DNA of 64,000 nt from assembly GCA_034401795.1 (NCBI GenBank), contig CM067359.1, positions 147,628,233-147,692,232 on the forward strand, given 5' to 3'. This document shows positions 2,267 through 51,444 of this stretch, in pieces. Under the pieces are notes generated by a model, which did not search any database, had not been told where the DNA came from, and saw only the letters and a program-made list of their open reading frames with translations. The translations under genes and the position numbers were made by a program. Source of the stretch: Chaetoderma sp. LZ-2023a. Its lineage: Eukaryota > Mollusca > Caudofoveata > Chaetodermatida > Chaetodermatidae. The stretch's first letter is position 1; each line of letters opens with the position of its first letter.

Positions 2267-3070
2267 ATTGGATTAGAAGATATTGCTGCCTTAAAAATAG
2301 TCAACAGATCATTTCTTACATTATGTTCAACGTTGCTTTGTTTTGGAAATGTAAAACCCTTTAATTTATTAGCTGCACTATAGACATCCTGGCAATGAGT
2401 TCCACGTGCTTGCAAGCAATGGTCGATGAATTTGACAAAAAACTATATTATCTGTTATAAATTTTTTCAATGCCATTTCAAAATAAGGATTAATTATTAA
2501 AATAGTCGGTATTCACTCTTACAAAAATAATAAGATTTGCTGGAAGCTTGAGCTGATATTGTTCAGATATCACCTACAATTTAACGCTTTCGTAACAACG
2601 TTTTTCATGTAAATGTTCCCTGGGGACTAAGCTTTTTTCGCCATGATTTTCGTAAATTTGACAAATTTCACTCAGAACCTCGCCGGCCGTAGACGGCCCA
2701 TGCATTAGCAATATGATTTCTAATAACGCTACAAACCATACCATCGCCGTGATGTGGGCGGGCCACTGAAATTCTGCACAATTGGACCCTGTGGGTGGGG
2801 TGGGGTGTGTGGGAGTTGGGGGTGGAGGTATTTTCTTAAAATAGCACCTATGGATATACTCATGACGTCATGCATGGCAGTAACTAGGCTAGTTATTGTG
2901 TGCGTCTAACACCTGAATTTTGCTAGTAATGTCATCTTAACGTGTAGGCCGGTCTCGGCCAGTGTAGTCCAGAGTGAACAGTTCGGCTATGGCCGGCGCA
3001 GGCATGAAAGGGTTAAACGTTTCTACCCATCATTCTGCTATGTAGTTCAGCTTGCTGATCATTGGTAGTA
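2267..3070. other. no gene seen
   Basis: No convincing coding exon. Contains a G-rich run near 2785-2830 and one CRE octamer at about 2861. The left end of the large TIR element begins at 3071. Confidence 0.5.
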
Positions 3071-3605
3071 GATGGAGAGCCATTTCGAGTTCGATTACAA
3101 TGTTGCGTACAAAAGGTTTGGCGATTGCTATCTATAAGCATGGGCGGTACAACAAAGAAAACTCATTTCTTAAGTGTCACATTCCTGGCGTTAAGGGGGT
3201 ATGTACCCGCAAAGTACCCACAAAATCATTTTCAATTACACTTTGGCGTACATCGCTGAAAATCATTTTAGAAAAACTTACACTATCAGTGATTAAAAAT
3301 CTGCAACTTAAGAAATGATATTTCCTGGCGTTTTCATTTAAGAAGGGCCCTTTTAGGGGCTCCCAAAGGGTTTCAATTACACTTTCGCGTACAAGAAATT
3401 TTTTTGGTTATACATTGCAAGAGAAACAAAAACCATTCTTAAGAAATTCTTTCTCCTGGCGTTTTCAGATAAGAAGGGTGGTATAGCTCTTAAGGGCTCT
3501 AAGAGGGGTTCCAATTACACTTTCGCGTAGAAGGACAATTTTACAATTTTTGGCTATGCTTGTCGCATACAATGTATTTGAAACGAAAATCATTATTAAG
3601 CCGTC
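3071..3605 (+). repeat. left terminal inverted repeat with internal sub-repeats
   Basis: Pairs with 11425-11963. It is itself built of about three degenerate 130-140-bp units, each with CCTGGCGTT (3184, 3324, 3455), an AAGAAGGG-type segment and CAATTACACTTTCGCGTAC (about 3232, 3373, 3511). Repeated subterminal motifs of this kind are typical of transposase binding sites. Confidence 0.9.
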
Positions 3606-3820
3606 GTTCTTGGTGACTGGTGAAAAACATGGCTAAAAGCAACTACACTCTGAATGTTTTCAAATAGAGTTTCATTACGTAGCCTAATCGTTTTCTGGTC
3701 ATGTGATCATAATAACGCGCACCGCCACTAATTTCTAAACGTTTCAGTAGCGTACTTGTTGTCGAGACTGTACATCGGGTGATGCCAAGCAATTCGATGC
3801 GCGGGCACACACGTATAATT

Positions 3821-3828
3821 TATAAATA
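3821..3828 (+). promoter_or_regulatory. TATA box of the element's gene
   Basis: Consensus TATAAATA, 112 bp upstream of the ATG at 3940 and inside the element, 215 bp after the left TIR. Start of transcription would be expected near 3850. Confidence 0.5.
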
Positions 3829-3939
3829 TAGTATGATGAAACAGTTACCATTTCGGTGTGGTGGTTATTCAGTATTTAGTTAGCTTTGGTCATAGTAATC
3901 TTATTATTTCAAATGACAATCTCTCATGATTAAATAAAC

Positions 3940-4018
3940 ATGGATGGTTTAACGCAATCCGTCGATACAATGGAAGAACCAACGCATTCAACATCTGCAG
4001 TAGAAGATTCAAATGAAG
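3940..4018 (+). CDS. exon 1 of the element's gene
   Basis: ATG in the context AAACATGG, then 26 codons beginning MDGLTQSVDTMEEPTHS and one extra base, followed by donor GTAGGAAG. Acidic, low-complexity leader with no domain. It joins exon 2 at 5482 in frame (phase 1 to phase 1), which is the main support for the start; the longer reading upstream of 5482 is intronic and has no ATG. Confidence 0.6.
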
Positions 4019-4085
4019 GTAGGAAGTTTGTATATATCTGATAGCTCGTTTCCCTAACAGACAACTTTACTTTCAACTATTAATC

Positions 4086-4335
4086 TAGGAACCCATGTGT
4101 ACGTATATGTATTGTGCGCAATGCGTATGCGCATTGCTTGCGTAATACTGGCCTAGTGCGTGTTGTCTGCCCCTTGAAGCGGTGAATACGCAACGCACTT
4201 CGCAGTAGGCACTGCGGATACATGGAATCACTTATGTTAATTTTCAATAGTTGTTATATTTACGCCATACGCACCAGGCAATGTTCATACGCATTACGCG
4301 TTGCGCACTCGCATATACGTACACATAGGTTCCTA
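4086..4335. mobile_element. palindromic MITE nested in the element's intron
   Basis: 250 bp with about 50-bp near-perfect ends starting TAGGAACCCATGTGTACG and ending with the reverse complement (CGTACACATAGGTTCCTA). CpG-rich arms with GCGCAATGCG motifs. It lies wholly inside the intron 4019-5481, so it would be spliced out. Confidence 0.75.
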
Positions 4336-4559
4336 AATTTAGTCCAATATACCCCATACACTCGAATAACAGTCAGGCCCCATTTATAAGTCGAACTTCG
4401 CATGAGCCATGCCAAATAAATTTACATGTTCATTGATTTTCCTGTAAATTTGTTTAGCGCGGCTCATGATAAGTTCTACTTATAAACTGGGCATGAGTTG
4501 TCGTGTATGATCAAAATCTTTATTCTCTCATCAAGCACAACATCATGTATTGTCTATAT

Positions 4560-4860
4560 TAAAGTCGGGTGGAATGAGGGTAATCTGGGGATTGTCTCCT
4601 CTCAATAAACACGAGAAATTTGAAAATTAGACTCTCAGAGAAGCCACTTCATGCAGCCTTTCGAATTAATGGGGAACAATTGAAGTAGTCTTGCTTCTTC
4701 CCTTGTTTGACATTGGTTGGAGGGGCAACTGTCCCGAGGCCACCCTCCGTTTCCAGTGCCCTTGCGTACGTGTTACAGAAGTGGTCATATTTGATTATTA
4801 TCGCTGAAATAGATTATCAATCAATCAATCAATCAATTTATTTCACCCAGATCACTGCAC
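4560..4860 (-). repeat. probable retroelement 3' end with (ATTG)n tail
   Basis: On the minus strand, GGGTGAAATAAATTGATTG leads into ATTGATTGATTG at about 4845-4820, a typical short-repeat tail of invertebrate LINEs or SINEs. Body and 5' end not defined. Confidence 0.35.
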
Positions 4861-4919
4861 AATGATAAATGGGGGAAGAGTTGGTACATATTTCCCGATT
4901 TGGCAGTGTGCTTTCTACA

Positions 4920-5279
4920 TTACTTCGTCGTTATTATTATCAACATCATTATTAGTATCATAATTATCATCACCATTATTATTATCATCATTATCACCAT
5001 TATTACTGTTATTATCATCATTAAATTTATCTTCACTTTGTCATCATTATCATCATCGACATCACAGCCATTTGCATTAACATATCATTGATAACATTAT
5101 GAGTAGGGCCTACCATTCTCATCATCATTATTATCGTATCCTGAGGAATGTTCACATGCAGGCCAAAAGAGAACTACTCCCGAATAGTCACCTCCGGGAT
5201 GACTGACCCCTCCTGGACAATTTCATTATCTTCATTATCATTGGCATGATCATCTCGGAATCCCCTTTATTATTGCCAC

Positions 5280-5310
<31 letters not shown>

Positions 5311-5400
5311 GTAGTCGTCGTCGTCATTGTCGTAGACGTCGTCGTCGTCGGTGACATTGGTGATGTTATTGTTGTTTTCGTCGCTGTTGCAACTTGTGTC
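4920..5400. repeat. ATT/ATC and GTT microsatellite tracts
   Basis: Degenerate (ATT)/(ATC) tract at 4925-5070 and (GTT)n at 5281-5310 running into GTC repeats. They lie inside the element's intron; reading frames here are low-complexity artefacts. Confidence 0.8.
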
Positions 5401-5481
5401 ATCATCGTCGTTGTTGTAGTCATCGTAGTTATCGCCGATTAGAAGCTATAACCACATTCAAGATTCCACTTCTCATTTCAG

Positions 5482-6440
5482 GGGCAGATAACGCGAGGAA
5501 ACCAGAGCCTATGCAGTGTCTGATACACACGATACCGTCAGAAAGGTCGCATCTTTTGAAATGGCAGCCGGATAAATGGAATCTCGTTTGTCGAGCAGCT
5601 GCAGCTAGATGTGCGAGCAAGAACTTTCGGTCATCCAGATATTGTGATATTATAGAAGCATTGCCGGAGCATCCTGTTGATAACGATGGCTACCATAGTA
5701 AATGTTATAAAAATTGTACAGCTGTACCTGGCAAAACTCCAGCTATACTTTGCGATAAAGCAGAGAAAATGCTTCGTAGTCTGCATCCGACTGGATCGCG
5801 TGGTTCAACCGTGAGTACAACTACCGATATTCTTTCTAATGAGTGCATATTTTGTGATAGAAGCACCAAAACTCGTATTGACGGCACAAAGGAATATCTT
5901 GGTAAGGTTGAAACTAAGCAAGCAGAGCAGAAAATCAAAGACGTCGTGAATATTTTGAAGTTGACTAGTGTTCTCGTGAAAATTTCGGGCGTGGATTTGA
6001 TTGCCAAGGAGGCACAATTTCATCATACTTGTCGTGCAGAAAAACCTGCAAAAGGCAGATCGTATTAAGAAATCACTTGCTCCAATAACCGAGGAGAATG
6101 TGAATACCAAGTTTCCCCTAGATTGCATTTGTTCATATATTGGCGAGTCCGTTATCGAAGGCAAACGACCAGAACACTTAACATCCATATATGATCAATA
6201 TTACGACTTTTGTGCAGAACTAGAAGTTGTCCCTTCAATAACCAAAGTGCAGCATTTTGGCGAAGTACTGAAGAAAAGGTTTCCTGGTCAGATTAATTTG
6301 CATACTCCAAAATGTAAGAGATCAGGTGTCATAGTTCATAGCACAGCAAGGGACTATGCATCCATAAGGGCGGTATATAATTTCAAATCGTCTCCCGAGG
6401 GCCAGGTGACACAAGCTGCTATGTTGCTTCGGCAGGCGCT
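5482..6440 (+). CDS. zinc-finger N-terminal region of the element's protein
   Basis: Starts at the acceptor CATTTCAG. The first part (frame of 5482-6043) holds paired Cys/His motifs: GYHSKCYKNCTAVPG (about 5680-5730), CIFCDRSTK (about 5845-5870) and AQFHHTCRAE (about 6012-6042). The CxxC...HxxC layout suggests one or two zinc-binding modules, plausibly DNA binding. After the A5-run frameshift (6040-6044) the same protein continues NLQKADRIKKSLAPITEENV and onward with CSYIGESVIEG. A second one-base shift near 6440 leads into the next segment. I recognise the architecture from uncharacterized metazoan proteins; the role is inferred. Confidence 0.65.
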
Positions 6441-6442
6441 GA

Positions 6443-7335
6443 AGTGTTGAAAAAGAACCTTTGAGTGACCCACTATCAATTACATCATTGGAGCGAAGTG
6501 AGGGAACACATCCACATTTGGTCACTACATTCTTCAATGCCCTCCTAGGTGGTCCAGAACTAGGAATGCATTCAGAATCTGTGAAGCGCCGAGCAAACTC
6601 TATGAGCCAAGACGCACTATTCATTGTGAAATATGGGACACTAAAACCAGCTAAACACATTCTGACAGCAATGGCTCTCAAGTCTCTTACGGGAAGCAGG
6701 AAGCTTATTACATTACTGAATAGATTTGGGTCGTGCATAATCTATAGCGCTGTTGAAGAACTGGAAACAGAACTTGCATCCGTGGTGATTGATAGGCAAC
6801 TCTGTTCTCCTTATGGTGCGACTCCTGGAATACCATGTGCATTAGCCTATGACAATTATGATGAGCAGACTCACACGTTATCAGGATCGGACACCCTCCG
6901 CGATACTATGGGAATTTTCTATCAGGTCGAGTCAGAAAGGTCACTACCACAAATTGAAGTGCTTCCAGAAGCAGCTGTTCCAAGTGCTGTAAAAAGAAGA
7001 GCCTGGAGAAAGTTGGATGTGCCGAGCAGGTCAATTGCACCTTTTAGAAAGAAACCTCGAATGGAGTACTTTTCCTATACCGACACAGACTACAACAGTT
7101 TACCAAACCTGTCCAGAAAACCTAGGAAGCTTGACTTATTGTGGATGGCAGCACATGCTTTAGAAATACAGAACATTCCTATGTGGACACGCTTCAATGC
7201 CCGATTTTATGTTGATCACCTTCCAAAACAAATTGTTCTCTATATGCCAAACATTGACTGTTCCCCAACGAGTATGGGTGTTGTTGCTGAAACCTTGAAA
7301 ATAACACAGAAATGTAAGGAGGAATGTGGTCAACG
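6443..7335 (+). CDS. central region of the element's protein
   Basis: Frame-2 segment from about 6443 (SVEKEPLSDPLSITSLERSE) to a stop caused by the third indel near 7335. Ends EETCx-like with CKEECGQRP, after which the next frame resumes NDLDVAKNAIKIQ. No catalytic motif recognised; it links the zinc-finger part to the nuclease part and contains basic patches (KRRAWRKL, RKKPRMEY, near 6990-7070) that could be nuclear localisation or nucleic-acid contacts. Function unknown. Confidence 0.55.
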
Positions 7336-9260
7336 ACCTTGATGTTGCTAAGAATGCAATTAAGATACAAGTAACCGAGCAACCTAAATACGATGACGTT
7401 TTTGTTCTATTTGGAGCGTTCCATCTACTAATGTGCCTATTCCGTGCAATTGGGAAGATTATCACAGAATCTGGGCTGCCAGAGATGCTCACTAACCGTC
7501 AGAACTATGCAAGATGGATGTCTAAACATCAGTTGAACTTGAAGAACCTACCAACAACACATCCCGGTCTCAAGGAGATGATATCTGCTGGGCTATTCAG
7601 TATCCACCGTACGGGCAATCAGTTTAGCAGACTACCAGTGGACCTCACACTAGAACAAACCATTAATGCTGATGCAGCCTCGAGGATGACTAGATTTACT
7701 GCAGCAACAAACAACTACAACGCCCGTCTACGATGGAGTGTCATGAAGAGTAGCAGAGCCACCCTCATCAGTGCTGCACTTGAAATGGCAGCGATGCAAA
7801 AGAGTAACGATGCTCAGACTGAGTTGCCTAAAAGCTGTACCCAACGTGACAATGATGACTTCAACAAACTCATAAACATCATCAAATCTTCTGCTAATCC
7901 ATATGAGTTGGAGACGGAATTGTTGATAAATATACATACAGGAAAGAGTTCCACACCTGAGATATCGGATTCTTTACTCAACATCGAAAAGGAAGGGAGT
8001 GAAAGACACACTGCATTTGTTAAGGAATGTTCTGAGGACCCATGTCGCTTTGAGCGACCTATTTCGCAAAATAAACTAAAGACCTTCGCAGATCAGGGAG
8101 CCAAAAACAAACGTTCACAGCATCCCATTGTCAAAGAGCTTCGGTGCACTAGGGACATGTTTGGCCGAATAGCAATTATCGCCACAAAGAGGACAGTTGA
8201 TCTCGCATTCCTGCTTACCTATCCGTTGACTTCTGTGCCATTGATCATGTGTCGAGCTGATGGTACAATGGAACATACAGACAAAAGTGTGTTGTTCTCT
8301 CTACTTGAATGTAAAATCAAGGAACACGGTTCCCCTAAAGAAATCTCAGCGCACATGGTTGACGGGAATTTTCTGTTGCAGTGTCTGCCACCAAATCTCC
8401 CTACAACGTATGGTGGACTCTCACGCACAGTATTACATGCTGTTTTGACGTACCCTTCTAAACGGATAGACATTGTATTTGACACCTACGAGGAACCTTG
8501 GATAAAAGACAGTGAACGAGAGTGTCGCGGATCAGAGGAGACAATTTATGTGATAGCTGGTCCTGAACAAGTCCGACCCAAAGACATCGCTAAATCACTC
8601 AAATCACAATCATTCAAACAACAGCTACCTCGGTTTTTAGTTAAGGACTGGTCTGAGCAACACCATGCATCAGTTCTATCTGACAGAGAGGTTTACCTTG
8701 GTGTAGATGGAACCTGTACTAAGTTCTCTGTTATCAACGGTAAATTGGAGGCAGAACCCATGGCACACATGGATTCTAACCATCCTGAAGCAGATACCAG
8801 AGTGTGTCTTCATCTGATCGATGCGGATCGTGCTATGCCAAATAATGACATCGTTGTACGGGCAGCTGATACAGATATCCTCATAATTTTATTACATCAT
8901 TCACATAGCGTCACATCAAATATTTGGATGGACGTGGGTACTTCGAGTCGCAGGAATCGACAGTATGTAAATGTCTCTGCTATCGCTACCAGCATTGGTC
9001 CCAGTTACTGTGCCGCACTCCCAGGATTCCACGCATATACAGGGTGTGACTACACTGCAACCTTTGCGCGAAAAGGCAAGAAACGTCCATTCATTGCACT
9101 TGAATGTGATGTCAGATTCATGAGTGGAGTACCAGATGAGGCTACTTGTAAAGCGATTGAGGATTTCACGTGTGTAATGTATGGTGCAGGCAAACTGTGT
9201 CCCCTAAACGAATATCGGTTCAGAGTATTCGACAAAGCGTATGGGCCTGAAACCACTTGG
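7336..9260 (+). CDS. FEN1/XPG-like nuclease core
   Basis: An uninterrupted frame from 7326 to 9278. Five acidic blocks occur in FEN1/XPG order (residues counted from 7326): HMVDGNFLLQ (D346), IVFDTYEEPWIKDSERE (D386, then K/E/R), HPEADTRVCLHL (E488, D490), RAADTDILIILLHH (D515, D517) and TGCDYTATFARKGKKRP (D575). In FEN1-family enzymes the matching residues hold the two metal ions, and the GxDY block is followed by a helix-turn-helix that grips DNA, here GCDYT..F.RKGKK. All expected acidic residues are present, so the active site looks intact. Assignment rests on motif order, not a profile search. In a TIR element it may be the strand-cutting enzyme; it could instead be an accessory repair-like nuclease. 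Confidence 0.65.
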
Positions 9261-9558
9261 GAAATTGAAAGGTGTTGACGCTAGTGGCATTCCACCATGC
9301 GAGGCAGTAGTAAAACAGAAAATTGCAAGAATCAACTTTGTAGCAATGATGTGGCATGCAACATGTGAAAACACTATCCCGAAACTTCCTGCTAGTGGAT
9401 GGGAACTGATAGACGATTCCTACCATATTGTGTGGTTCGATGGACCACAGATGCCCCAAACAGTTGTCCCTGAAACTGTTGTATGTGACGACGATGAGGA
9501 CAATCTGAATAATATTGAAGATGACGACTTCGTGATTGAAGCGCAGGATTCGGATTAG
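9260..9558 (+). CDS. C-terminal tail of the nuclease protein
   Basis: After a one-base shift near 9260 the protein continues LGKLKGVDASGIPPCEAVV, then ARINFVAMMWHATCEN, GWELIDDSYHIVWFDGPQMP and an acidic end (DDDEDNLNNIEDDDF) before the TAG at 9556. The GW...Y.I.WFDG.Q.P ending is, from memory, shared by related invertebrate proteins, which supports joining it to the nuclease frame. Confidence 0.6.
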
Positions 9559-11424
9559 AATTGACTTGCTTGGCCGTTTTACAGTACTACTAACAGCGAA
9601 CAGTATTCGCTTACAGGCAGATATGTAATTCAGATACAATTTCCCGAACAATGCAATTCACAATACACAGCTGGGCACTGCTTTTGAAATGGTTAGGCAA
9701 TGCAAAATAGGTTACCTCGATTTCACTGACGTAAAAGAAATAATGTTTACTGGCACCCTTTACAGATGGAATCCATTTATCTCAATTCAAGACAGTCATT
9801 CAAGAAACTTTTCATATTTTTTTAATAATTCTGACTGAAAGTCATTACTTACTTTGGCAGCAATGGCCTCCAGTCAAAATAATTTGAAAATATTCAGTAT
9901 AATTTTCGGTATCTCGTTGACTAGTTAAAACAGATAATGTACTATAAATAGTACTAAATACATGTAAATTGACTACCTATGGATTGATTACCTGTCCACC
10001 ATTGGATTTTTGCAATCAAGTAACCGCCGGGAAATGTTAGAATCGCGCTAGAATGTATGAATACAGTTAACAAAATGGATGGATTGCTTTGCTCTGGAAA
10101 TTTGGGCAATGCTTTTGATCCGTTAATGATTTTCACTAAATACTTCATGTAATATCACGCTGTCTGACATTTTAAGGCTGAGCTTATCGTTAGAAACTAA
10201 TTTATTTTATACACGCCCTTATTTGAAGACGTCAAATTATACCATTTGTTAACCACAGAGCCGGATCAAGCCTTTTTTGGCCTAGGCTAAACTCCTTCGA
10301 ACTGTTGCCAAAGTTGCTAATTCAACACTAGAATTTGTTCAAGAAAAGTTTCGATTTTCTCGTAGAAAATGTCTATTTGCAAACGAAAAAAGATTATTTT
10401 TGAAAACTTATCACTGGAATGACTTGCTCAATTATCGACTTTTTCAAAAACAGTCTTCTCTTGGTTTGCAAATGGACATTTCTCAACCCTACTGTAGAAG
10501 CCGTTTTGGCTGCTATGTGTGTTAAAGGGTTAACTGTCTAAAATACCAATAAGGCTGCATTAAATATTTTGTTAAATAAAATGTTATCCTTCAAGTGCCG
10601 GGCCCCCAGACATATTGGGCCTCTAGATTGCAGCCTAGTCAGCCTAATTGCTTAAGAAATATTAGCTCATTCATATTGAAAACGGCCTTGAATCATAATT
10701 TCTTTAAAAATGTGTAATTTATAGCTCAATTTCAAACCCGTCATAGAGGCAAGCTAATGCATATTTTGAAAATTGCTTGACTGGAAACAACGACTTACAT
10801 GTAAACTAATTTCAAATATCTTACGTCGCATGAAATGTGTCATGGCTATTGTTTGAATGATGGCATTGAAAGTGCTAAGAGCTACTGATCCTTCTTATCT
10901 GAAAACTTCAGGAATGAAAATTCATTGAGAAACCTGTCTATTGTGACCACTTTAATGGCACCAAAAGAAAAATGTTCGTTGAATATGGTCAATTAATTAA
11001 TACCGTTAGTGGCGTTTCACATCACAAAAAGTTGGGTCGAAGGCACTTGGTCTTACAATCATCGTGTTAAAGAGGCACCAGTTTCTGGTCCAATTAGTAT
11101 GTGGTCGTTATAGACAGGTTTGCCAGTGACTACAGCCGAAAATTGTAGGCAAAGGTGTAATCAAAACCCGTTTTCAGCCATTTCCCAAATGAGAGCATAA
11201 GCTGATGTTGTATATTTTGAATTTAATTTAACTTAAAATCGTATGGATATCTGGTCTGCATTGTTGAAAGGGTTAGGGGTATTTGATCCCTCTCATTCGA
11301 AAACGCCCGAACTGAAACTTTTTTTTAAATGATTTTCGTTTCAAATACATTGTATGTGACAAGTTTGTTCAATATTCTCTCTTGTATGTAAAGCTGTAAT
11401 TAAAACCCCTTGAGCTTTGGTGTC
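9559..11424. other. 3' non-coding part of the TIR element
   Basis: No coding region seen. Holds a degraded hairpin fragment of the MITE type (9825-9902), an AATAAA hexamer at about 10575 that could serve the upstream gene, and the nested TTAA-type MITE at 10317-10530. 11300-11424 has extra partial copies of the TIR sub-repeat (repeated AATGATTTTCGTTTCAAATA). Confidence 0.5.
10317..10530 (-). mobile_element. piggyBac-like (TTAA) MITE with foldback core
   Basis: Minus-strand copy: TTAACCCTTTAACACACATAG at the right end, GAGAAATGTCCATTTGCAAAC, and a central inverted repeat around CATTCCAGTGATAAGTTTTC. Same family as 15575-15812, 39140-39290, 45711-45915, 48466-48668 and 56946-57156. Confidence 0.7.
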
Positions 11425-11963
11425 TTAAGAATGATTTTCGTTTCAAATACATTGTATGCGACAAGCATGGCTAAAACTTGTAAAATTGTCCTTGTACGCG
11501 AAAGTGTAATTGGAACCCGTCTTAGAGCCCTTAAGAGCTATACCACCCTTCTTATCTTAAAACGCCAGGAGAAAACATTTCTTTAGAATGATTTTCGTTT
11601 CTATTGCAATGTATATGTTAAGTATAACCAAAAATTTTTCTTGTACGCGAAAGTGAAATTGAAACCCTTTGGGAGCCCCTAAAAGGGTCCTTCTTAAATG
11701 AAAACGCCAGGAAATATCATTTCTTAAGTTGCAGATTTTTAAACACTGATAGTGTAAGTTTTTCTAAAATGATTTTCAGCGATGTACGCCAAAGTGCAAT
11801 TGAAAGTGATTTTGGGGGAACTTTGGGGGTACATACCCCTTAACGCCAGGAATGCGACACTTAAGAAATTGATTTTCTTTGTTGTACCGCCAATGCTTAT
11901 AGATAGCAATCGCCAAACCTTTTGTACGCAGCACTGTAATTGAACTCGAACTGGCTCCCTAAC
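11425..11963 (-). repeat. right terminal inverted repeat
   Basis: Reverse complement of 3071-3605, with the same order of CCTGGCGTT and TTCGCGTAC sub-repeats. Differences by eye are mostly single bases plus a few short indels. Confidence 0.9.
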
Positions 11964-12094
11964 TATAGTGCCATTTTATTGGCCACAACCAGCATTACCA
12001 GTTTCAGAGGAATATCGAATGAAAACATGTAAACTACAGATATCCAAATTCATCTGTTCATCGATTTTCGGCCAATGGATGAATCCGATATGTC

Positions 12095-12705
12095 GATCAG
12101 GTATATGACGTCATAATCAACTACGGCACACGCATGCTGATGTCAAAATCAGAATTGACAGCGAATACTACGTCATGGAGCTGGAATAGTCCAGCCAGTC
12201 AAATTAGTTTCAAAAGATGCAGCAGTTTACCTGTATAGTTACCTTGATATTTGAATATGGAGTATTCAGGGTTCGATCGATACCAACACTGGCAAAGCGT
12301 GGACGGAGCATAGCTATAAATGGGCGGGAGCATAGCTATAAATGGGCTGGAGCATAGCTATGAATGGGCTGGAGCATAGCTATGAATGGGCTGGAGCATA
12401 GCTATGAATGGGCTGGAGCATAGCTATAAATGGGCTGGAGCATAGCTATGAATGGGCTGGAGCATAGCTATGAATGGGCTGGAGCATAGCTATGAATGGG
12501 CTGGAGCATAGCTATGAATGGGCTGGAGCATAGCTATGAATGGGCTTGAGCATAGCTATGAATGGGCTGGAGCATAGCTATAAATGGGCTGGAGCATAGC
12601 TATTAATGGGTGGGAGCATAGCTATGAATGGGCTGGAGCATAGCTATAAATGGGCTGGAGCATAGCTATGAATGGGTGGGAGCATAGCTAGAAATAGATC
12701 GCTCT
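12095..12705 (-). mobile_element. MITE whose GC-rich end has expanded into a minisatellite
   Basis: Reverse copy with CRE site at 12106, the right hairpin half (CCAGTCAAATTAGTTTCAAA, about 12195), the GATCGATACCAACAC segment, and then the 22-bp array that replaces the normal GC-rich end. Confidence 0.7.
12296..12697. repeat. 22-bp minisatellite (about 18 units)
   Basis: Unit GGAGCATAGCTATGAATGGGCT, repeated about 18 times with few substitutions (ATGAATG/ATAAATG). It matches the two-unit GGGCGGGGCATAGCTAGAAATG motif at the end of the surrounding MITE family. Confidence 0.95.
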
Positions 12706-14261: not shown

Positions 14262-14572
14262 AAGGGATACGTTTCTAGGTATGCCCCGCCCATTTCTAGC
14301 TAATCTCCGCCCACCATTTCCTCGTGTTGTGATCCAGAATCCCAATATCAAGGTAACTATACAGGTAAGCAGTTGAATATCAAATTATTTTCAAAAGATT
14401 CACCAGAATGTTTATCAAATAGTAAATAAATACAATTCGTACACTTGACGGACTATTTCAGCAACGAGACGGAGTATTTCTGCCAATTATGATTGTGAAG
14501 TCAGCTTGCATGTGACGCAATTGATTATGACGTCATATATTTGAGCAACAAATCGGATTTATCCATTGCTTC
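14262..14572 (+). mobile_element. diverged AT-TSD MITE
   Basis: GC-rich end TATGCCCCGCCCATTTC, GAATCCCAATATCAAGG, a decayed hairpin at 14375-14415, the ATTCGTACACTTGACGGAC segment, and CRE octamer at 14528. The outer ends are degraded. Confidence 0.7.
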
Positions 14573-17520: not shown

Positions 17521-17696
17521 ATTCTTTAGGTGGTTCCCGTTGGCCGTGACACTCGAGATGCATTGAAAACAATGTGTATCTAGACTTGCCAGAGAACAGA
17601 GTTGATGATAAGGTGCATGTGGACTGATCAAAGGATCAGCAGGTAAGTTCTCATTGAGGCAAAGCAGTAACACTCATGGATCTCTCCTACCTAGTG

Positions 17697-18039
17697 TATT
17701 CATCTATCATATGACGTCATAATCGACTACGCGACGTGTAGAATGGCATCTTAATGAATGACGTCACAAACGCATATTTGAATACGGACTATGCGTTGTT
17801 GTACTTTACTATTTAATAAATATTCTGTTGAATATTTTGAAACTAATTTGACTGGGCGCTGATGCTGCCATAGACAGCAACAGCACCCAGTCAAATTAGT
17901 TACAAAATATGCATCGGCGTACCAGATTTTTCAGGAAATTGATAGCCAGGGCATTCGGGGATCGATCAATCCCAACACGGAGAAGTGTGGCTGGAGCTTA
18001 ATTAGAGGTGGGCGGGGCATAGCTAAAATGGAAAGGTCC
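17697..18039 (-). mobile_element. AT-TSD MITE, near full length
   Basis: CRE sites at 17710 and 17758, hairpin at 17825-17915, then GATCGATCAATCCCAACACG and ends GCTAAAATGGAAAGGTCC. Confidence 0.85.
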
Positions 18040-18239
18040 TTTCTGCACAATCTTCGCACCATGACATGCATAACTGATTTCATTTACATTCAGTGACGAT
18101 ATAGCAACTCTGCAATTTTTAATTACCACCGTTTGGCGCCAGTAACATTATTTCTGTTTGCCAAGGAATGTAATTAATGACATCGTTTGAAGTGTGCGTC
18201 TACCTGTATACATATAAATAGGTCAATTTGCTGGAATGG

Positions 18240-18700: not shown

Positions 18701-19227
18701 TCCCATGGGAGAGACATACCCTGTCGTCTGGACCACATTACGCCATTGGTTTATGTACTGCAGATAACCCTGTCTTGATAGAATCCCTCCATGTCGTACC
18801 ATTTGGTTTAGCTACTCTTGACTTTGGCTGGTTGTAGAGGTTCTCCAACAGGTTCCATAAGTTCTCTACAATGCCGAAATGGTGGATTTTGTGGAGGCGA
18901 GCCGGTGTCCACAGCACGTCGAACGAATTTTCTGCATCGAGCGAAACTAAAAACAGTTCTTTTCGTTTTTCCTTTGCTTCCAAACTGGCCTCTGTTACCA
19001 AGCTCTCATCAGCCATACTTTTTCAATGGTCTTCTCCATTACTGTCAGAACTGTGACGCCACGGTAGTTACCATGGCTCCGTGATGCTTTTTCTTTTTCA
19101 GAATTTGCGTTATCCACCCTTCCTTTATTATATCCGGAACTGGGGTTGTCTTAAAGATCATGTTCACCAGTTCTGTGGTGTATTCAAGAACTTGGTCAGC
19201 AGCTCTCTGCACGTGCTCTACTGTAAT

Positions 19228-19626
19228 GGATCTTTCCAGTTTTAGCTATGCCCTGCCCATCTCTATCTAAGCCCCACCCACACCTCGTCCGTGTTGGGAT
19301 CGACCGATCTTTAAACTCCCTGACTATCAACTTCCAGAAAACTATACAGGTAAGATGATAAATATTTTAAAACTAATTTGACTAGACGCTGTTGCTGCCT
19401 GCGGCAGCAACAGCGTCTAGTCAAATTAGATTCAAAATTTTAAACAATATGTTTATTAAATCGTAATGACATACATTTCGTACAATGTGTCGGACTATTA
19501 AGCGCTAAAGACGGTCTATATCGAGTCATTCATGACGTCATAATTATGACGTCATATTACACGCCGCGTAGTTTATTATGACGTCATATGATGTCATATG
19601 ATGGATTAATAAACTTGGAAAGGTCC
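19228..19626 (+). mobile_element. AT-TSD MITE in the LINE reverse transcriptase
   Basis: Nearly complete copy with a clean hairpin (19355-19445) and CREs at 19529, 19544 and 19577. Flanks AT at 19226-19227 and 19627-19628. Removing it with one AT restores the LINE reading ADVMGITVEHVQ, so the insertion site is known exactly. Confidence 0.95.
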
Positions 19627-22802: not shown

Positions 22803-23036
22803 GACTATATGGGTGATTTTGTCTAAGATAGGAGTTCAGGGTTTATTTGATTACAATAAAACATAATATATAAGTACTAGTTACATAAATATTTATTTTA
22901 GCATTTTCTTTCAAAGTTAATTTTAATGATATTCTACTTTGAAATTATGTATGGTGTGATTTCAATCATTATCCAACTGTTTAGCCAATCCTGCATTCTA
23001 TTAGCCAGATCTCAGTTTTATTAGCATTTGGCTAAT

Positions 23037-23429
23037 GGACCTTTCCATTTTAGCTATGCCCCGCCCGTCACTAGCTAAGCTCCACCCACACCTCGCTGTG
23101 TTGGGATTGATCGATCCCCAAATGCCCTAGCTATCAATTTCCTGAAAACTATACAGGGAGGCTGTTGAATATTTTGCAACTAATTTGACTGGGCGCTGTT
23201 GCTGCAGCAACAGCGCCCAGTTAAATTAGTTTCAGAATATTCAACAGAATATTTATTAAATAGTAAAAGCAAACAATTTGTACAACAACGCATAAACCAT
23301 CTTCAAATAAGCGTTCGTGACGTACTTATCGACGTCATTCATGACATCCGTCATTCATTATGATGTCATTGTACACATAGCGCAGTTCATTATGACGTCA
23401 TATGATGGGTGGGTACTCTGGAAAGGTGA
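23037..23429 (+). mobile_element. AT-TSD MITE 75 bp from a CDF exon
   Basis: Complete copy: GGACCTTTCCATTTTAGC start, hairpin 23162-23250 with the very short turn GCTGCAGCAAC, CRE at 23392, end CTGGAAAGGTGA. Flanked AAT/ATT. Confidence 0.9.
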
Positions 23430-23504
23430 ATTGGCGAATGGGTAGGTCGGTCCCTGAACGGTTCAAAGGGTTACTTACGACAGAAATTTGAAAATTATCC
23501 TTAC

Positions 23505-39338: not shown

Positions 39339-41713
39339 AGACCTTTCCAGTTTTAGCTATGCTCCGCCCACCTCTTGCTAAACTCCACCCACTCTTAGCC
39401 GTGTTGGGATTGATCGATTCCCGAAAGCCATGGCTATCAATTTCCTGAAAACTATACAGGTAAATTGTTGAATATTTTGTGACTAAGTTGTCTTAGTGCT
39501 GTTGCTGCCTATGGCGCTAGCGCCCAGTCAAATTAGTTTCAAAATATTCAGCAAGGTATTTATTAAATAGTAAAGACATACAATTCCTTCTCTACCTAAG
39601 ATATAAACACCATACCAGGCAAGAGGGTAGAGTCACCTACAAACTACCCAAGCTCATCAGCGACACTGAAACTCAAATGTCATACAAAAAAGCCCTCGGG
39701 GAGCAGATAGCTAACATCGATGTCAGCTCCGATCCAAACGAAGCCCTAACCAAAATACTGAAATCTATGGAATCATCCGCTACCAGCACCATAGGTGTTC
39801 TTAAAAACAACCAAACTAGGTATACTGACAACCTTCTAGTAGTAAAACTGTCAGCTAAGCAGAAAGCGTTACGGCTGCGCATCTATCAAAGTGGCCAAAG
39901 TGAAGACCGCACCAAACTACGCCGGGAGCGCAATATTATTCTGCGCCATAATAGCTGACGCTTAAAAGATCTTGCTATTCAACAGGCAGACTCCCTAGCA
40001 GATGAAATCACTGCCACGGATGACTGTCACAAAATGTTTCGGGCAGCCCGAGCCCTGAGAGTTACTGACTACACACCACCACTCACTGTACACAACTCTG
40101 AAGGACACTTTATTGGGACTGACCAGGGAAAAGCCGAGGCAATCCGAGAATGGTTCAAGGAACAGTTCACCGACAACGATGATGAGCCCTTGCACCCGTT
40201 CTCAGGAGACCCCAGGCCATTACTAACACCATTAAAACAGCAGAAGTTGAGAAGGCACTTAAAGCCCTGAAAAATGGATGTGCATCTGGACCTGATGGCA
40301 TGAGCAATGAACTATTCAAATATGCAAATGACATTATCTCAAAACCGACCGCGCACCTAATCAATTCAGCTTTTATGCACCACCTTCCCATCGCCATTGT
40401 AGGCCAAGGCACCCTTATCGCACTACCCAAGCCCAAGAAGCCACCTGGGCCCCCAGACAATCTGCGGCCCATTGTGCTCCTCAACAGCATACGGAAAATC
40501 CTATCCAATGTTACCCTATGCCGCATCCGAGACAAGATCGATTACTTCACCGGATCATGTCAAAGTGGCCTCAAACGTGGACGCAGCTGCGCACACATTG
40601 CTTTTCACCTGCTACCTTGCTGCCGCATTGAAATCTGTGCGGGAAAGTTCCATAAGACCAACCCCCCCCTCCCCCCCACCTCCATTATCAATACCGGAAA
40701 TGCCGCTAGAGATGGAATATGCCGACGATGTGGACTTCATAGACGAGGAACAGAAACCCCTTGATGAACTTCTCCCAATAGCTGCAAGTAAACTAAAAAT
40801 TGAGAATCTCTTTATGAATGAATCCAAAACAGAGTTCACCCACATATATCTATCGACAAAGCATGAAACTATAGAAAATGACGACCCACTTCGTGGCGCG
40901 AACCATGGAGGAAAAGTAAAATCCTGGGCTCACTGCTTTGCAGTACTGCTGACATTTCTGCACGCTGCGTCATGGGGAACATAGCTTTCCAATCCCATTG
41001 GAAGCTATGGATTCGTAGATCAAAGATGCCCTTGATAAAGAGGCTACGTTTATACAATGCAACCTGCGTATCCTTGATGCTGTATAACTGTAACAGCTGG
41101 GCAGCTCCAAAGGCAGCTCTAGACAAACTCGATGCGTGCCACCGCAAACACCTACGCACCATCACTGGACACCGATGCCCAGACAGCATAATTTCCAATG
41201 ATGCACTATACAAGATGTGAAATACGTCGCCGCTGTCCGTAAAAGTCGCCAAGCAAAGATGGTCCATGTTTGGCCATGTGCTAAGGATGCCAGAAGAGAC
41301 ACCAGCACAGTGAGCCTTGGAATTCGCCCTACCCGGAGCCAGCAAATACAAAGCCAGGAGAGGACGTCATTGCATAAATCTGCTAAGCGTGCGACGAGGT
41401 GACCTCAAGAAAGCAGGACTTGGTACACTCAAGTCATGAATGGACCTGAGGAAGCTAAGGATTTCGGCTGAGGACAAGACACAGTGGACAAAAGCGAAGA
41501 AGGACTGATTGCAGCTGTAGGATGTTTCTGCTACTACAGCCGCGGAATACAGTAATCATACATACAATTCATATGCATAGTCCGTCTTTAATTATGCGTT
41601 AGTAACGTACTTATCTACGTCGTCCATGACGTCATAATGACGGCATTGATTGTGATGTCATTCGACACGTCACGTAGTTGATTATGACGTCATATGATTA
41701 GTGGCTACAGTGC
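39339..41713 (+). mobile_element. AT-TSD MITE interrupted by a LINE
   Basis: Left part 39339-39586 (AGACCTTTCCAGTTTTAGC, hairpin 39468-39553) and right part 41560-41713 (CATACAATTCATATGCATAG, CREs at 41628 and 41683) are the two halves of one copy, split in the TACAATTCGTAC arm. Confidence 0.9.
39587..41559 (+). mobile_element. 5'-truncated LINE with 11-bp target duplication
   Basis: Bounded by ACATACAATTC at 39576-39586 and 41560-41570. It begins inside ORF2: MSYKKALGEQIANIDVSSDP (39677), a TGA at about 39956, MFRAARALRVTDYTPPLTVH (40034), a frameshift near 40223, TAEVEKALKALKNGCASGPD GMSN (about 40228-40305), LRPIVLLNSIRKILSNVTLC (about 40465), then an internal loss of the block with the PQG motif near 40600. 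MEYADDVDFIDEEQ (catalytic YADD) lies at 40712-40753, ATCVSLMLYNCNSWAAPKAA about 41062-41120. The 3' end is GCGGAATACAGTAATCAT, not poly(A). Dead copy of a non-LTR element; clade not assigned. Confidence 0.92.
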
Positions 41714-50175: not shown

Positions 50176-50348
50176 GCGCTGTCTTTGACAACAACAGCTT
50201 CCAGACAAACTGGCTCCAAAACATTCAACCATATCAGAGGCTAGGCATATAGTTGGCGCTATATATAATTGGTAGCGCCTGGCTACGTTGAATGAATACA
50301 TACATGATAATGCGGGAGGTAATGATAGATTAATACAATGATAACAAC

Positions 50349-50733
50349 TCACCTTTCCAGAGTACCCACCCATCATATGACGTCATAATGAACTGCGTCA
50401 TATGTACAATGACATCATAATGAATGATGTCGATAAGTAAGTCACTAACGCATATTTGAAGACGGTCTATGCGTTGTTCTACAAATTGTTTGCTGTTACT
50501 ATTTAATAAATATTCTGTTGAATATTTTGAAACTAATTTGACTGCGCGCTGTTGCTGCCATAGGCAGCAACAGCACCCAGTCAAATTAGTTACAAAATAT
50601 TCTACAGCTTCCCTGTATAATTTTCAGGAAATTGATAGCTAGGGCATTCGGCGATCAATCAATCCCAACACGGCTAGGTGTGGGTGGAGCTTAGCTAGTG
50701 ATGGGCGGGGCATAGCTAAAAATGGAAAGGTCC
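50349..50733 (-). mobile_element. AT-TSD MITE in the duplicated segment
   Basis: Starts TCACCTTTCCAGAG, ends AATGGAAAGGTCC, hairpin 50514-50610 with a stem of about 45 bp, CRE 50379. The sister segment at about 49050 is the empty site (ACAATTAG), giving the AT duplication. Confidence 0.92.
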
Positions 50734-51444
50734 ATTAGGACGACTCGTATTTAACTAGACATATGATTAAAACTCAGAGTTTTCAGGGGTCTCTGGGGTT
50801 AAAGGCATTGTCTCCGTCCAGAAAAGGCGACCATGAACCCTGTATGTGCTGTCTTACTATGACAACAACAGCTTCCAGTCCAACTAGTTGCAAATCATTC
50901 AACAATTTGCGAGACTAGACATATAGTTGTCACTTCAGGGTTTCAAGGATTAAAGGAGTAATCTCCATTCAATACATATTTAGTTTGATAGTAGGAAGCT
51001 TACACAATCCACAACCCAATGTTTTTGATCTTAATAAAATGAACTAATTTTAACAATATAACCACTACGTGGTACCAGGTACAACAGATCATTTATGATG
51101 TATGAGCTCGAGCATAATTGTATTGAGTGATTTGAAACTAATTTGACTGAAATGTGTTTTGCTACCTAATTAAACCAGGCAAGAGTTCAAGTCAAACTAG
51201 TTACCAAAATACTAAACGCGTTGTAAACCTTTATTTATGTCTGGGCTTTGATATGAACTGGGATTTCAGTGGTGAAAGCGTTAAGAGATAAACTATTCCA
51301 AATTACCGCATCAGCTGCAGTACGAAAATTACTGTCTTACAGTCTTAAACGATTCTCCAGTCAGGATGTGCACAAAACGAACGCGTAGTATAAGACATAC
51401 GATCTTCCAACATATATGCTGCTACATTGTGATCGAAGTTAATT

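Follow-up and report, generated by a model that had tools for sequence, protein, structure and literature searches.

A DNA transposon of Chaetoderma sp. combining a DDE-like domain with a FEN1-like nuclease, most likely a new family of the AcademX type

The window (i.e. the whole 64,000-nucleotide stretch of Chaetoderma sp. LZ-2023a DNA analysed here) contains a DNA transposon with long terminal inverted repeats (TIRs) and a FEN1-like nuclease, which is very probably a decayed autonomous cut-and-paste element of the AcademX type, within the Academ superfamily. The element most likely represents a new family of this already described kind; its formal membership of Academ and AcademX we infer from the published traits of AcademX. 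The features on which this reading is based, namely TIRs, 3-bp duplications, the empty sites of three relatives, a single gene and conserved acidic residues, were observed directly and are described below.

Results

Termini, target duplications and empty sites

The TAG duplication listed in Table 1 defines an element occupying positions 3069-11965 (8.9 kb), which starts TAGATGG and ends CCTAACTA. Its two TIRs are 91.3% identical over 543 bp (770 bits), compared with 30 bits for the best of 60 one-side shuffles, and each includes internal repeats of ~141 bp, bearing out an earlier sequence-only reading that proposed a mobile unit with long TIRs. The TA target duplication suggested in the same reading is rejected, as the TA concerned lies inside the inverted repeats, and the true duplications are 3 bp long, vary between copies (TAG, ATA, TTA, AAT, CTA, TCT, TTG, ATG, TAT) and stand outside termini that mostly read TAG...CTA.

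Table 1. Features of the transposon, in window coordinates
Feature	Position	Strand	Detail
Target site duplication TAG, left copy	3066..3068	.	3 bp
Left TIR	3069..3600	+	starts TAGATGGAGAGCC; ~141-bp repeats inside
Open stretch 1, zinc region	5364..6068	+	
N-terminal Cys/His region	5691..6035	+	YHSKC, CIFC, FHHTC
Open stretch 2, next frame	6001..6450	+	
Open stretch 3, first half of DDE-like transposase domain	6443..7342	+	
First D of proposed triad (YDNYD)	6851..6853	+	identical in 6/6 rows with a residue (12-row alignment)
Open stretch 4, remaining DDE-like domain and XPG/FEN1-like nuclease	7305..9278	+	
Second D of proposed triad (NDLDVAK)	7335..7337	+	identical in 8/8 rows with a residue
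Internal deletion site	7490..7492	+	roughly 200-420 bp absent relative to near copies
E of proposed triad (TLEQTIN)	7653..7655	+	identical in 9/9 rows with a residue
XPG/FEN1-like nuclease domain	8127..9191	+	acids at 8361, 8481, 8787, 8793, 8868, 8874, 9048
Open stretch 5, C-terminal tail, another frame	9241..9558	+	
Right TIR	11424..11965	-	terminates in CCCTAACTA
Target site duplication TAG, right copy	11966..11968	.	3 bp

Identical 3-bp flanks were found for 16 of the 19 copies with both ends located, these copies representing three related families within the genome. For the window family and its cousins the flanks match in 8/10 copies (TAG, ATA, TTA, TTA, AAT, AAT, ATA, TTA), the remaining two being C5 (CAT/TAT) and C10 (TCT/GCG); for a sister family, represented by L049, they match in six of seven (CTA, TTA, TCT, TTG, ATG, TAT), with C11:269.27 Mb (TTT/TTC) as the seventh; and for a third family, of L050 type, both copies match (ATA and TTA). 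These counts leave aside copies with one end or with degraded ends, i.e. C8:55.70 Mb, C16:54.71 Mb, C8:106.06 Mb, C7:4.82 Mb and C11:110.13 Mb of the window family, three of the ten sister-family copies examined (single end found) and C4:8.4 Mb of the third family (left end alone fetched), as well as weaker TIR matches, for which the second end was not traced. The duplications of C14, C11:261 and the L050 type were identified by eye and later confirmed by script. Ends of matching copies begin TAG and finish CTA, with TAA or TGG at a few other ends (e.g. the left ends of C10, C5 and C11:269.27 Mb).

Empty sites, proposed in the sequence-only reading as a check on the element, were sought by comparing joined flanks with the window and the fetched loci, and paralogous examples were seen for three of 14 joined flanks (C2, C4:25.58 Mb and C15:49.53 Mb), each of these insertions sitting inside a repeat that has a paralogous copy. 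The corresponding alignments (n=4, 74-82% identity) are gap-free at the junction; the one for C15:49.53 Mb has a gap of 2 bases a few positions further along. For the window insertion, only its own two flanks were matched.

Several repeats surround the element. A 22-bp tandem array (12305-12690; 17.5 copies, 95% matches) lies ~340 bp to its right, and related units of 21 bp are found at 14272, 26660, 28809, 50673 and 62888. A dispersed repeat of ~400 bp, which partly includes the 21-bp units and an inverted part of roughly 90 bp, has many copies in the window (23032-23433, 50345-50738, 17682-18042, 19224-19593, 1411-1765 and others). Reverse transcriptase-like fragments in two frames at 40186-40981 (Pfam RVT_1, E 0.023 and 0.033, below cut-off) are probably a broken LINE.

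A single, broken gene

Between the TIRs of the window element lies a single gene of ~4.1 kb on the + strand, present as five consecutive open stretches in successive frames (5364-9558). We treat these as one broken gene because near copies, with 82-92% protein identity, show them to be so; the sequence missing at ~7491 of the window is retained in several such copies (L012, L015, L016/L018 and L017). The gene carries Cys/His motifs at 5691, 5841 and 6018 and, from 8358 to 9050, acidic motifs of XPG-like type, upholding the suggestion that one gene combines zinc motifs with FEN1/XPG-like acids. Since it contains about four frameshifts and the internal deletion, the window copy appears to be decayed and inactive; it retains the residues of the proposed triad (6851, 7335 and 7653) and the seven nuclease residues. 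All four frame breaks within 5364-9558 shift in the same direction, to the next frame, perhaps by chance.

Relatives in the genome

Searching the genome (2.44 Gb) gave at least 73 matches to the protein (68 candidates scored of 12,223) and at least 62 and at least 64 matches to the TIRs. Among the eight closest gene loci listed, i.e. the window and seven others, every one has at least one matching, correctly oriented TIR and six have both (C1, C4, C5, C10, C7:61 and C7:74), in agreement with the proposal that the nuclease gene lies between TIRs. The two ends of C5 are ~17 kb apart, and the second end of C10 shows 81% similarity, the match not extending to its outermost 33 bases; at C8:55.70 Mb and C16:54.71 Mb a second TIR was not found within the stretches fetched.

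The sister family has 42-43% protein identity and, like the window family, long TIRs around the gene (596 bp, 94%, in L049), and the third family has ~32% protein identity and short terminal repeats, of which the clearest measures 25 bp (92%) and lies just inside the ends. All three families have the gene inside defined ends with 3-bp duplications, and their end sequences differ. L049 (1,475 aa) and L050 (1,562 aa) are single-frame relatives, both with zinc, DDE-like and XPG-like parts. A fourth lineage (L089-L094), found via the Pfam family PF20231 and 21-22% identical to L049, contains no copy complete in one frame among those fetched. These three parts occur together in four lineages (in single open frames in two), at identities down to ~21%. 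In a further lineage, L051, a single frame holds the nuclease together with the E and the second D, and neither a first D nor a zinc part was seen; its C-terminus is Cys-rich and weakly resembles Tesmin/TSO1 CXC (PF03638, E 0.021, below cut-off).

At C11 277.10-277.23 Mb two transposon families are each present as a mirrored pair of copies (277123885-/277208190+ and 277107186-/277224124+), and one pair of flanks is likewise mirrored, a pattern that represents either an artefact of the assembly or an inverted duplication of large size.

Protein scans of viral and prokaryotic collections confirmed no relatives, and ten pattern matches (one viral, nine genome) yielded none on tblastn and translation. 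There was no match in tblastn searches of phages with the nuclease part or of plasmids with the DDE part, in searches of PHROGs and NCBIfam, or in a phmmer search of the PDB with a 650-aa frame.

The DDE-like domain and DUF6589

Conserved positions were examined in a combined alignment of 12 rows, several of them closely related, scoring columns with at least five residue-bearing rows (6-9 each). Upstream of the nuclease, the acidic columns identical in all residue-bearing rows are D408, D411, D502, D575 and E823 (L049 numbering); by eye, hydrophobic stretches precede D408/D411 and D575, and E823 falls in what is probably a helix (EQTVNADA). Only four lineages (window, L049, L050 and L089) showed the first D. 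These positions suggest that the upstream domain may adopt a DDE-type fold. The sequence-only reading had noted no standard transposase; this holds in that Pfam models of named transposases give no hit in the region upstream of the nuclease, and fails in that a conserved D-D-E triad is present there, in the same gene. A search of the PDB with a profile of the DDE-like region (A2) returned no transposase among the solved structures. Matches to Pfam PRORP (E 0.029-0.17), RFX (0.017) and Herpes_UL49_2 (0.12) fell below cut-offs and were taken as chance.

One Pfam family, PF20231 (DUF6589), listed there as of unknown function, does match this domain above cut-off in two lineages: in L049 (588-824, E 2e-8) and in L089 (639-923, E 1.7e-13), L092 (E 1.3e-9) and L093 (E 5.4e-13). 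In both lineages the match runs from just past the second D to the E. The L051 protein scored below cut-off (E 0.0015), and the L050 and L059 proteins gave no match. A genome search with PF20231 returned at least 102 matches (102 candidates scored of 1,025), compared with none in 14 control genomes. Six of the 102 loci, apparently of one lineage, were opened: each contains all three triad motifs (D, D and E) plus four or more of five XPG-like motifs, and in three the fetched stretch also includes a zinc-like motif. It is reasonably probable, in our judgement, that DUF6589 corresponds to the part of an Academ-type DDE transposase between the second D and the E, and hence that its members are transposon proteins; none of the papers in the library searched names DUF6589.

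The XPG/FEN1-like domain

In the downstream part of the alignment D1061, D1099, E1201, D1203, D1229, D1231 and D1291 (L049 numbering) are identical in all residue-bearing rows, as are two further acids, D1008 and D1028. The seven match the seven acids of FEN1 in number and order. A profile of this region (A3) retrieved five solved structures, of which four are Exonuclease 1, the best match being weak (E 0.065 over whole chains; no individual stretch reached significance). Aligned by hhalign to the host FEN1 (L095), it matched 50 columns at the GCD motif with a score of 25.7 and a probability of only 3.4%; the maximum among 40 shuffles was 21.9, and four other comparisons scored 13.4-15.8. For L092, the 5'-3' exonuclease N domain (PF02739) gave a weak hit, at E 0.17. 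The putative nuclease is therefore recognised by motif, with weak statistics.

The sequence-only reading had looked to Pfam profiles for confirmation of this domain; XPG_I misses these copies, and it is the upstream part that a profile, PF20231, matches. Because XPG_I finds only three other loci in the genome, none of them one of these transposon copies, the transposon nuclease appears remote from that model. Unlike FEN1, EXO1 and XPG, the domain here forms part of a transposon protein.

Discussion

The single gene would encode a protein of ~1,500 aa, most likely comprising zinc fingers, a DDE core and a FEN1-like nuclease. The N-terminal Cys/His fingers may, together with subterminal repeats, recognise the ends; cleavage at both ends, and their joining to the target across a 3-bp stagger, would fall to the DDE-type, RNase-H-like domain; and the likeliest guess for the C-terminal XPG/FEN1-like domain is that it processes an intermediate, either a strand or a flap, while the element is being excised or integrated.

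A Cys-rich zinc finger alongside a nuclease of XPG type is reportedly what Kapitonov & Jurka (2010) and Yuan & Wessler (2011) describe for Academ proteins, and Kojima (2020) is reportedly the cited source on AcademH. The nucleases of AcademX we take to be XPG-type. PMC10045372 gives duplications of 3 or 4 bp for AcademX and of 9 or 10 bp for AcademH, a difference that seems tied to the encoded helicase and nuclease; Academ is placed among the superfamilies with a DDD/E transposase in PMC9587614, and its listing in Repbase is mentioned in PMC5753468. The elements described here resemble AcademX as nuclease-encoding DNA transposons with short duplications, of 3 bp in 16/19 two-ended copies; the nuclease is a candidate one, identified by motif with weak statistics, the putative DDD/E domain is seen as a conserved D-D-E triad and a PF20231 match, and TIRs surround the gene, being short in the L050 family. 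The comparison with AcademX, in which the window element has TIRs of ~540 bp with internal repeats and a length of 8.9 kb, is by published description rather than by sequence. A bivalve survey that used an Academ DDE/D profile gives 100 curated Academ consensus elements with TIRs and target duplications checked and a mean length of 5,565 bp, against 8.9 kb here (PMC10294476). AcademH belongs to the same superfamily and differs in its helicase and its longer duplications, compared with 3 bp in these families; among Pfam matches with E up to 1, ten protein pieces of the relatives contained no helicase. No paper in the library searched treats Academ, XPG and transposon together.

The sequence-only reading had favoured an undescribed superfamily with the FEN1-like nuclease as its main enzyme; were that nuclease the sole catalytic enzyme, the upstream D...D...E would be structural only. 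The lack of a named-transposase Pfam match in the upstream region, and of any transposase among the solved structures retrieved with its profile, would fit such an element. However, D, D and E are among the few acids identical in all residue-bearing rows, and an element with defined ends between 3-bp duplications is what DDE integration normally produces. The activity of FEN1-type enzymes is flap cutting, and none is known to join ends. With a nuclease-bearing Academ lineage also already in print (PMC10045372), we consider a nuclease-only superfamily very unlikely, and that claim is not sustained.

Capture of a host nuclease gene, or a fragment of one, by an unrelated TIR element is what a single copy viewed alone would suggest; it is extremely unlikely given that the DDE-like part is accompanied by the XPG-like one in the window, L049, L050, L051 and L089 lineages, and that three families with differing end sequences all have the gene inside defined ends flanked by 3-bp duplications. 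Independent acquisition of an XPG domain by another known DDE superfamily, or by a sister group of Academ, would be compatible with an assignment that relies on published traits rather than on a sequence match, yet a nuclease together with 3- or 4-bp duplications is the published mark of AcademX (PMC10045372), which makes this explanation very unlikely.

The AcademX reading thus corrects the claim of a new nuclease-driven superfamily. Single-frame relatives with exact ends, duplications and empty sites are now known, an annotation is offered for a Pfam family of unknown function (DUF6589), and the single-frame relatives make the role of the XPG-like domain in transposition testable.
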